Origin: an uncultured Actinomycetes bacterium
Lineage (GTDB): Bacteria > Actinomycetota > Acidimicrobiia > Acidimicrobiales > RAAP-2
Assembly (NCBI GenBank): GCA_903830745.1
Contig: CAIKVF010000046.1
Location: 1 to 15,478, forward strand
Reading direction: 5' to 3'
DNA: 15,478 bases
Shown: positions 5,925 to 8,453 of the stretch, in pieces
Position numbering within the stretch: position 1 is the first letter of the stretch
Layout: each line of letters opens with the position of its first letter
Notes under the pieces: generated by a model
The model's input: the letters and a program-made list of their open reading frames with translations, nothing else
The model's database searches: none
What the model was told of the DNA's origin: nothing
Translations under genes and position numbers: made by a program

Positions 5925-8453
5925 GTGTTTCTTAAGCGATTAACCATGAAGGGCTTCAAGTCCTTTGCCGACAATACGGTCATTGAGTTCGAGCCGGGCG
6001 TCACTGCAGTTGTGGGGCCAAACGGATCTGGAAAGTCCAATGTTGTTGACGCAGTTGTTTGGGTACTTGGTGCTCAGGGAACAAAAATTCTTCGAAGTGC
6101 AAAAATGGATGACGTCATTTTCGCTGGTACTACCAACAAGGCAGCACTTGGACGCGCTGAAGTTTCTCTAACACTTGATAACTCAGATGGTCGTCTCACC
6201 GTTGACGGTGCCGAAGTAACAATTTCTCGCACACTGTTTCGCAATGGTGACTCCGAATACGCAATCAACGGAACCACATGTCGCTTGCTCGATATCCAAG
6301 AACTTCTTTCTGACTCTGGTGTTGGACGTAACCAGCACATGATTATTGGTCAGGGACAGCTCGACTCAATTTTGCAATCAACCCCAGAACATCGACGTTC
6401 AGTAATTGAAGAAGCCGCAGGTGTTTCAATTCACCGTCGACGTAAAGAACGATCTGAACGACGTCTTGCACAGACGCAAGAAAATCTTGAACGACTTGGC
6501 GACCTCGTGCGCGAAGTTCGTCGTCAAATGCGACCACTGGAGCGTCAAGCACAATCAGCTCGCAGTTTTGCTGAAGTTGAAGCGGAGCTCCGTGCAGCGC
6601 GTCACGCACTCTTTTCAAATCGTGCTGCAACCTTTGAATCGCGTCAGGTTGAGCTTGGAAAAGAACTCGCGGAGTTCTCATCTAAGGAGCAGGAAGTTCG
6701 AAATGAAATTCTGACTCTTGACGCCAGAGCTTCAGCAACAGCATCAGAAATGACGAGTCGCCGTGAAGAAACACTCGCTTCAACACTTGGAACGTTGCAA
6801 GGACTTGCAGAGCGTGCTCGAGGAACTGCGTCGATTATTCAAGAGCGCGAGCGCTCACTCAAGATCGCACTCATTGCATCAGCTGACGAAAACGTAATTG
6901 CAACGCTTGAAGCAGACGCCGCGAAGCTTGAATCAGACCTCGTTGGTCTTGGTGCAGAAGAAGCGCTATTGAGCGGACAGCGTGAAGCACTCGAGAGTGT
7001 TCGTAATGAACTGAAAACCGCAGAGAACGACTTCGTCACTGCATGGGGTGCAGGTTCTGGAGATGACCTTGAACTTCTTAATCACGAAATCAGTCGACTT
7101 GGTGAACTGATCGCAGAACTCGAAAATGTTGTGAACTCAATGACCAATGACAGTGGAGAGCTTTCTGGTCAAGTGATCCTCATTAATGAAGAGCTCAACG
7201 CTCTTCGAGCACAACTTCCTGTTCTCGAACAAGCAGTCAACAATGCGGCAGAACACCGTGCAGTTCTTGATGAATCTCGCGAGAAACTTGAAGGTCAGCG
7301 AAATCGTGTTGGCGACCTTGCGACAGAGCTACTCACTCGTGAAGTTGAGTTTGGTGAGCGCCGCCGTCTTATCGAACAACGTCAAAACGAAATTGAACAG
7401 CGACTTGAAGGTCGCTCTAGTGAGCGTGCTGAAGCTGCGAGCCGTCGTGGGTCTCTTGAATTTGACCTTCAGGTTCTTGAGCGACTTGCTGCGCTCGTTA
7501 CTCGTGCATCTAGTGAGATCCGCACATCACAAGAAGCAATGGACTCAACGTACCGCGAGCAACTTGAAGCTTCACGTGCTGGTGCTGAACGCCTCGAAGA
7601 AGTTCGCCGTGCCCGCAGTAACGCTGAGCGCCGCTTAGGCGAAGTCTCCGACCTCGTTCGTACTCGTGAGATTGAACAAGCTGAGCTTGCGATTAAGACA
7701 ACAAACCTGCTCGAACTAATTCACCGTGACCTTGGAATCTTCCCGCACGAACTAGGTGCTCCATCACACATTGATCTACCCGATGGTGTTTCACTTGAAC
7801 AGCGGGTGGGTGAACTTGAGGCTCGTATTACGTCACTTGGGCCAATCAACCCTCTTGCGCTTGAGGAGCTAACAGTTCTAGAAGAGCGCTACAAGGAACT
7901 TGATGCACAGGTCACAGACGTTCGAAACGCTCGTCGTGAACTTCAAGAAGTCATTCGAGCAGTCGACAAAGAAATCATGGAGACGTTCTCAAGTGCAGCA
8001 GCAGACGTTAATGAGCACTTCTCTACGCTGATCTCTACGCTGTTTCCAGGTGGACATGGTCGACTTGTTCTCACTGATCCAGAAGACCCACTTAATACTG
8101 GTGTTGAAATTGAACTTCGCCCAATGGGACAGAACGTACGACGCATGTCACTTCTTTCAGGTGGACAGCGTTCAATCGCTGCACTGGCGTTTTTGTTCGC
8201 GATCTTCCGCTCACGCCCTTCGCCCTTCTACATGCTTGACGAAGTTGAAGCAGCACTTGACGACGTCAACCTGCAACGTTTCTTGGGACTCGTAGACGAA
8301 TTCCGTGACGAAGCTCAGTTGCTTATTGTTACGCACCAAAAGCGCACTATGGAATCCGCTGACGCTCTTTACGGAGTCACCATGGTTCCAGGATCATCAT
8401 CAAAGGTTGTTAGCCAGCGGGTAAAGCGCACTGAGGGCGCCACGACCTCGTGA
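5925..8453 (+). CDS. smc: chromosome-segregation SMC protein, apparently hinge-less
   Basis: SMC dimers with ScpA and ScpB extrude DNA loops and organise the chromosome. Both ATPase head halves are intact. Walker A GPNGSGKS is at residues 31-38, the IIGQGQ segment at 140-145, and the signature LSGGQ at 744-748. Walker B/D-loop FYMLDEVEAALDD is at 768-780 (usually DEVD), and the C-terminal THQKRTME...GVTM is present. The C-arm junction LGPINPLALEEL (638-649) is typical. The total is 842 residues, against roughly 1150-1200 for bacterial SMCs. Between the heads (about 166-690) there is only charged coiled-coil sequence with short breaks (373-381, 405-416, Pro432) and the usual joint-like insert near 600-622. 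There is no 150-residue globular hinge, and the single cysteine (119) excludes a Rad50-type CxxC hook. The start is GTG; the stop overlaps ftsY as GTGA. scpA and scpB are not in the window. Confidence 0.93.
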   Translation: MFLKRLTMKGFKSFADNTVIEFEPGVTAVVGPNGSGKSNVVDAVVWVLGAQGTKILRSAKMDDVIFAGTTNKAALGRAEVSLTLDNSDGRLTVDGAEVTISRTLFRNGDSEYAINGTTCRLLDIQELLSDSGVGRNQHMIIGQGQLDSILQSTPEHRRSVIEEAAGVSIHRRRKERSERRLAQTQENLERLGDLVREVRRQMRPLERQAQSARSFAEVEAELRAARHALFSNRAATFESRQVELGKELAEFSSKEQEVRNEILTLDARASATASEMTSRREETLASTLGTLQGLAERARGTASIIQERERSLKIALIASADENVIATLEADAAKLESDLVGLGAEEALLSGQREALESVRNELKTAENDFVTAWGAGSGDDLELLNHEISRLGELIAELENVVNSMTNDSGELSGQVILINEELNALRAQLPVLEQAVNNAAEHRAVLDESREKLEGQRNRVGDLATELLTREVEFGERRRLIEQRQNEIEQRLEGRSSERAEAASRRGSLEFDLQVLERLAALVTRASSEIRTSQEAMDSTYREQLEASRAGAERLEEVRRARSNAERRLGEVSDLVRTREIEQAELAIKTTNLLELIHRDLGIFPHELGAPSHIDLPDGVSLEQRVGELEARITSLGPINPLALEELTVLEERYKELDAQVTDVRNARRELQEVIRAVDKEIMETFSSAAADVNEHFSTLISTLFPGGHGRLVLTDPEDPLNTGVEIELRPMGQNVRRMSLLSGGQRSIAALAFLFAIFRSRPSPFYMLDEVEAALDDVNLQRFLGLVDEFRDEAQLLIVTHQKRTMESADALYGVTMVPGSSSKVVSQRVKRTEGATTS

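Follow-up and report, generated by a model that had tools for sequence, protein, structure and literature searches.

An SMC protein encoded in the window (the whole 15,478-nucleotide stretch analysed here, contig C46 of genome G000) truly lacks a hinge, and the hinge-less form is fixed in a lineage. The hinge is regarded as the defining dimerisation domain of SMC proteins. On balance, this is probably an ordinary chromosomal SMC that recently lost its hinge and distal arms and that would act as a core Smc–ScpAB motor, its tip closed by residues 382–432.

An intact SMC frame without a hinge

The smc gene occupies positions 5925–8453 (stop codon included; all coordinates are on the forward strand), and its 842 codons are read without interruption from a GTG that gives the usual SMC start, MFLKRLTMKGFK...; the database gene calls of 835 amino acids begin at Met8. 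The earlier note had described a single frame with both ATPase heads complete, and this is borne out by Pfam matches to the SMC_N and AAA domains and by the presence of the Walker A, signature and Walker B motifs. The N-terminal head covers residues 1–180 (5925–6464, boundary approximate), with residues 1–218 aligning one to one to the Smc heads of 3zgx and 5xg3 and the Walker A motif GPNGSGKS at residues 31–38 (6015–6038). The C-terminal head, delimited by Pfam and by alignment to Smc heads, covers residues 641–842 (7845–8450, boundary again approximate) and contains the ABC signature LSGGQ at residues 744–748 (8154–8168) and the Walker B stretch FYMLDE at residues 768–773 (8226–8243). The protein scores 710.2 bits against the bacterial SMC equivalog TIGR02168 (cut-off, 567.35) and falls below the Rad50 equivalog cut-off, the best such model (NF002572, NCBIfam) giving 75.6 bits against 1087.

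No match to the SMC hinge (PF06470) was found in the protein by Pfam, even at E ≤ 10. A genome-wide search for a hinge domain elsewhere in G000 was also negative, with controls matching in 12 of 14 genomes (10 over the cut-off). A hinge profile trained on the genus left the window SMC unmatched as well; because this profile also misses hinge-size frames from distant actinobacteria (L101–L103, L105 and L107) and from the Acidimicrobiales group f32 (L219 and L220), its negatives are valid inside the genus only. A CxxC hook is absent from the window SMC and from all 28 listed hinge-less proteins, and Cys119 is the sole cysteine of the window SMC. The lack of hinge and hook and the single cysteine, all claimed from the sequence beforehand, therefore stand.

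Aligned with 92 full-length relatives (P0029–P0120), the protein has a single block of 322 columns missing, which falls between its residues 380 and 381; apart from this, gaps of more than three columns occur only where longer rows extend at the C-terminus. In the relatives this block comprises the hinge (PF06470 at residues 500–612 of P0029) and the distal arms. Measured from the hinge glycines 496 and 646, it holds about 115 residues of the distal N-arm and about 55 of the distal C-arm, so the deletion is asymmetric. It starts in a stretch that is non-helical in relatives (Gly375 in 66% of rows, Gly381 in 49%), and the C-arm segment is kept down to Pro432, which is Pro754 of the relatives and is conserved in 96% of rows.

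What remains between the heads begins with an N-arm coiled coil, assigned from sequence (residues 181–371, 6465–7037). It is followed by the deletion junction and a flexible linker, TAWGAGSGDD, placed by alignment with relatives (372–381, 7038–7067), and then by an orphaned distal segment of the C-arm (382–432, 7068–7220), the proposed new tip, in which a heptad core precedes residues 405–416 and Pro432. The C-arm coiled coil and joint, delimited by the relatives' alignment, complete the series (433–640, 7221–7844, boundaries approximate). Breaks in the coil that had been noted at 373–381, 405–416 and Pro432 do appear as helix-unfavourable points.

An assembly deletion, raised beforehand as an objection to the hinge-less reading, is ruled out by the equal length of near-identical proteins and by a second genome. 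Among the 120 matches listed in a protein search (of 7,684 above threshold; 8,000 scored), 28 near-identical proteins (P0001–P0028) are all 835 amino acids long and without PF06470. They form two clusters, six at 99–100% and 22 at 95–96% identity; P0001–P0006 are listed without a source, and P0007–P0028 come from public sources. The longest contigs that carry a hinge-less protein reach 697 kb (P0002) and 557 kb (P0007). PF06470 is present in each of the remaining 92 listed matches, whose identity is 75% at most, over 51–57% of the query. A second species genome, G279, carries a hinge-less smc with the same junction as G000 (contig C169, CAIKFN010000169.1); the two genes share 94% DNA identity, and the G279 copy lies in a collinear 11-kb block with 92.7% DNA identity to G000.

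Hinge loss in the genus and in a marine lineage

The collection represents the genus by 99 species genomes, and an SMC match was obtained in all but one of them (98). A single full-length match (E of 0) is confined to G000 and G279; the 96 others give part-matches, with best E values of at least 1.9e-207 (match places are listed in part). Among 29 named loci (L033–L059, L064 and L084), 25 frames have both heads, and all 25 contain the hinge; complete SMC frames of the genus are mostly 1,155–1,198 amino acids long. PF06470 was present in 17 of the 19 genus members listed in a class-wide search, the exceptions being G000 and G241, whose SMC is split into two pieces on two contigs. The closest SMCs of the genus share 71–77% identity with the window SMC in matched stretches (53–77% across those listed) and have the hinge.

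In a tree of the head domains, the hinge-less rows fall among the genus rows (82/87), on a stem of 0.13 compared with end branches of 0.012–0.092 for nine other rows of the group; L036 (0.075) and L061 (0.15) lie just outside it. The earlier note had named close relatives with matching arms around a normal hinge as grounds for refuting the hinge-less reading. This condition needs rephrasing, as the closest relatives do carry the hinge; because all 28 listed near-identical proteins lack it, the pattern suggests a recent loss, nested in the genus, and not an artefact. The window SMC thus resembles the canonical Smc–ScpAB of its genus in the identity of its closest members and in the ScpB of the sister genome G279, and differs in the 322 missing residues and in 19 conserved positions that are changed in six hinge-less rows.

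Two further ideas within the genus were rejected. A hinge-bearing SMC of 1,125 amino acids (L059, G223:C16), considered as a second arm deletion, contains a run of Ns and reflects an assembly gap. Genome reduction as a sufficient cause of hinge loss is not supported, as the relatives G193, G277 and G289, with assemblies of 1.4–1.5 Mb, keep the hinge. Some smc-carrying loci from public MAG records have titles that seem misplaced, namely ‘Bifidobacterium breve’ for L073 and L092 and ‘Candidatus Saccharibacteria’ for L035, which agrees in contig number and length with G168:C45, from the genus of the window itself.

A hinge-less SMC is already in print for one marine lineage. SMCs without hinge or CxxC were reported in 2025 from abundant marine Actinobacteria, the lineage being left open, and in the available sections of that paper the clade was not found beside a regular SMC (PMC12153180). 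This was the only natural hinge-less SMC that we found in the literature, and the string ‘acidimicrob’ occurs 0 times in the available text.

Across the class, 330 of 395 genomes have a PF06470 match, none of these being of family code f65. Among 20 listed of the 65 genomes without it, 12 belong to f65 (G294, G299, G304, G310, G313, G316, G319, G322, G326, G329, G333 and G336; 0.9–1.1 Mb; loci L175–L180, L183–L187, L191–L192 and L216–L218). Their SMC frames are 881–899 amino acids long in 11 of the 12, the twelfth being cut by a contig end, and the one examined with Pfam (G329) had no hinge match. The GC content is 30–31% in three loci, and ScpA, although diverged, is matched in 11 of the 12 genomes (10 over the cut-off). 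A homologue from the database, at 67% identity, is named Candidatus Actinomarina (P0237), a genus placed in the class Actinomycetes by NCBI, with which the annotation in the available part of PMC12153180 agrees. We infer that f65 is Candidatus Actinomarina and the clade of that paper, which would put a name on the lineage left open there.

The Actinomarina SMC and the window SMC are alike in having SMC heads and coiled arms with no hinge, no CxxC and no regular SMC found beside them (PMC12153180, available sections). The window SMC differs in belonging to the Acidimicrobiales, in its length (842 amino acids) and in its breakpoints; identity to the f65 SMCs is 31–59% in matched stretches, and the missing segments are not the same. 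That the window gene was transferred from Actinomarina, or that its form is an assembly collapse, is scarcely credible, the least likely of the readings weighed here. The assembly is fragmented (272 contigs), another hinge-less SMC does exist in the class, and a single joint hinge-less clade is only weakly rejected (p-AU 0.046), the f65 rows being long branches with an odd letter make-up. Against these points, the length is equal in the 28 listed proteins, the junction is the same in two genomes and the hinge-less rows sit among genus rows; transfer is ruled out mainly by identity, which is 71–77% to the closest genus members and 31–59% to Actinomarina, the tree test alone being weak. From these comparisons, two independent hinge losses are apparently the simplest reading. 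The window provides the second, younger and better-bracketed case: because the loss is nested in a genus in which the hinge is retained by the other members sampled, the states before and after are both available.

Other genomes of the collection showed unusual SMC or ScpA profiles. Three f32 Acidimicrobiales (G032, G148 and G562; L219 and L220) have full-size but very divergent SMC frames of 1,115–1,166 amino acids with a hinge unmatched by PF06470 and no ScpA match, though G032 is a single contig and 99% complete; a fourth, G564, has ScpA and no SMC match. This group possibly carries a remodelled condensin. ScpA is also present in G129 (94% complete) and G303 (91%), neither of which has a match to the window SMC at E ≤ 1e-5.

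Presumed partners, selection and altered heads

ScpA was found in 91 and ScpB in 94 (93 over the cut-off) of the 99 genus genomes. Neither was found in G000 (89% complete), which fits an assembly gap: the syntenic contig G000:C42 (3,072 bp) breaks off at what is position 1464 of the G279 contig, 0.8 kb short of where the scpB stop codon would lie. The first 26 codons of G279 contig C97 resemble the ScpA C-terminus of G168 and are followed by an intact scpB; ScpB is therefore certain in this lineage and ScpA very likely. A complete ScpA was seen in neither hinge-less genome, the tail in G279 lying at a contig end. The search for scpA and scpB that the earlier note had proposed came back empty in G000 and gave a complete ScpB and a ScpA tail in its sister genome, and the idea that ScpAB was lost jointly with the hinge was dropped on this evidence. 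The SMC presumably works with ScpAB. A second full-length SMC was likewise sought in G000, and none was found at its 89% completeness; the one other match (E of 0.026) spans residues 3–47 only.

The smc genes of G000 and G279 differ at 9 of 842 amino acids and by 139 synonymous changes (dN 0.0053, dS 0.263, ω 0.020). By region, ω is 0.022 in the N head, 0.006 in the N arm (181–372), 0.028 in residues 373–460, 0.051 in the C arm and 0.013 in the C head. Eight neighbouring genes (coaD, rpmF and mutM were left out) range from 0.014 to 0.101: rsmD 0.059, ORF1531 0.032, DUF177 0.020, plsX 0.014, acpP 0.101, rnc 0.028, ftsY 0.048 and ffh 0.031. The gene is under strong purifying selection. It is very hard to regard it as decaying towards loss: a domain has already gone and the genome is smallish (1.28 Mb at 89% completeness), but the low ω, the few amino-acid differences beside many synonymous ones and the equal length of all 28 listed proteins argue against decay.

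Of the genes tested, the SMC heads alone evolved faster in this lineage, by about 1.9-fold. The distance of the window SMC to its relatives, divided by the mean distance among the relatives, is 1.89 for the N head (n = 29) and 1.95 for the C head (n = 25); distances this large occur in none of the relatives (0 of 29 and 0 of 25). The same ratio is 1.07 for FtsY, 1.09 for Ffh, 1.09 for Rnc and 0.92 for PlsX and, measured for G279, 1.02 for ScpB (n = 20) and 1.00 for RluB (n = 21); RpsP, TrmD, RplS and Fpg were left out because the G279 contig used lacked a copy or the rows were too few. Twenty positions that are at least 97% conserved in the 92 full-length rows differ in the window SMC, and at 19 of these the change is shared by the six hinge-less rows used. 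When full-length rows were left out one at a time, such positions numbered 1.8 on average and 9 at most, a control that favours these rows because their near kin are often in the set. In the ABC signature, Glu748 (92 of 92 full-length rows) is replaced by Gln (E748Q, LSGGE to LSGGQ), and L168S/K169I are notable changes near the head–arm boundary.

Fast head evolution could also reflect changed partners or a changed job. The protein could have been repurposed as a hinge-less ATPase resembling Rad50/SbcC or RecN, its condensin role gone, and the accelerated heads, the changed signature motif and the lack of a whole ScpA in either hinge-less genome would agree with this. We consider it improbable, given the score above the SMC equivalog cut-off, the missing zinc hook, the usual gene order, the single SMC found in G000, the intact ScpB of G279 and the retention of a ScpA match in most hinge-less Actinomarina genomes (11 of 12, 10 over the cut-off). 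Rad50 and SbcC do share the long antiparallel coil and the absence of an SMC hinge, but the window protein has no zinc hook, and its head sequence is that of an SMC. An ordinary SMC working with ScpAB is still the favoured reading, and the fact that ScpB has no acceleration matching that of the SMC heads counts against it.

Proposed closure of the shortened arms

On this reading the SMC, having lost 322 residues (966 bp) in frame in a recent ancestor, would have stayed functional. Its two ATPase heads, bridged by ScpA and ScpB, would work as a core motor of reduced length, capable of DNA loading and of extrusion or translocation; the hinge gate, and hinge-based obstacle bypass, would be gone. 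Closure of the ring at its far end would most likely involve the distal C-arm helix 382–432, with residues 372–381 as a turn: as the old partner helix was deleted, the hydrophobic face of 382–432 could pair with its counterpart in a second protomer. The heads would have been remodelled after the hinge was lost, for example from LSGGE to LSGGQ.

Within residues 224–640, the heptad signal peaks in the tip segment (amplitude 1.79 at 399) and is exceeded only by that of the head-proximal coil near 196–203. The core of the tip segment (L385, I389, L392, I396, L399, V403 and M406) is invariant in the 28 listed hinge-less proteins, among which 1 of 25 sites varies in 382–406 compared with 24 of 180 in 461–640. 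All seven core positions are hydrophobic in hinge-less proteins; this is true of 15 of the 92 full-length rows, and at least five are hydrophobic in 78. The face at 385–406 is therefore largely ancestral, and its conservation may be inheritance. B. subtilis coil structures gave no match by sequence for the distal arms, and the register of the arms is approximate because it was taken from B. subtilis construct numbers in the available parts of PMC5344682 and PMC5526789. By this estimate, the partner of N-arm residue 380 should lie at about C-arm residues 432–449, which would leave about 50–65 C-arm residues, from 381 onwards, without their old partner. Judged from sequence, a coil-tip dimer of the window SMC is plausible.

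Engineered proteins offer a comparison. B. subtilis Smc is non-functional when hinge dimerisation is lost, a Rad50 zinc hook can stand in for its hinge, and shorter arms are functional at some lengths (PMC5344682, available sections). In Wadjet, a JetC in which a linker of nine residues takes the place of residues 348–686 still supports plasmid cleavage when its tip is cross-linked; obstacle bypass is abolished in this JetC core, and so is cleavage once the tip is opened with DTT (PMC12647877, available sections). The JetC core and the window SMC both have a short Gly-rich linker in place of the elbow-to-hinge segment. The former is an SMC that was engineered, belongs to a defence complex and carries an introduced cross-link, whereas the window SMC is natural, presumably acts with ScpAB and has arms without cysteine.

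The same experiments bear on a ScpAB-partnered SMC with no far-end dimer contact, in which ATP-dependent head engagement, the kleisin bridge and contacts between rods lying side by side would suffice and 382–432 would fold back onto the arm to which it belongs. This seems unlikely, though it is the most serious of the alternatives. Bridging of the heads by ScpA and ScpB is established for Smc–ScpAB, hinge-less and hydrolysis-deficient (EQ) Smc5/Smc6 sub-complexes associate with ATP (PMC8327961, available sections), and residues 405–416 and Pro432 could allow an intramolecular hairpin of 382–432. The JetC core, however, needed its cross-linked tip, and B. subtilis Smc does not function without hinge dimerisation. 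We continue to prefer a core motor closed at its tip by 382–432. A fuller claim, that Smc–ScpAB was naturally pared to its core motor independently of Actinomarina, with closure through the orphaned coil, retuned heads and no bypass gate, is possible but somewhat short of probable.

Two hinge losses within one class, apparently independent of each other, suggest that cells can do without the hinge under some conditions, and a minimal chromosome motor may have arisen naturally. Because one lineage lacks the hinge and its closest relatives have it, before and after can be compared in nature, a comparison that the deeply divergent Actinomarina does not allow. Through this genus it becomes testable whether the hinge serves extrusion or obstacle bypass only, as do alternative SMC ring closure and compensating changes in the heads. 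If the core-motor reading is true, chromosomes are organised here without the obstacle-bypass gate of the hinge.

One hinge-less protein, P0028, is alone among the 28 listed in having any cysteine beyond Cys119, with two at positions 390 and 713 in window numbering; residue 390 falls within the proposed tip helix.
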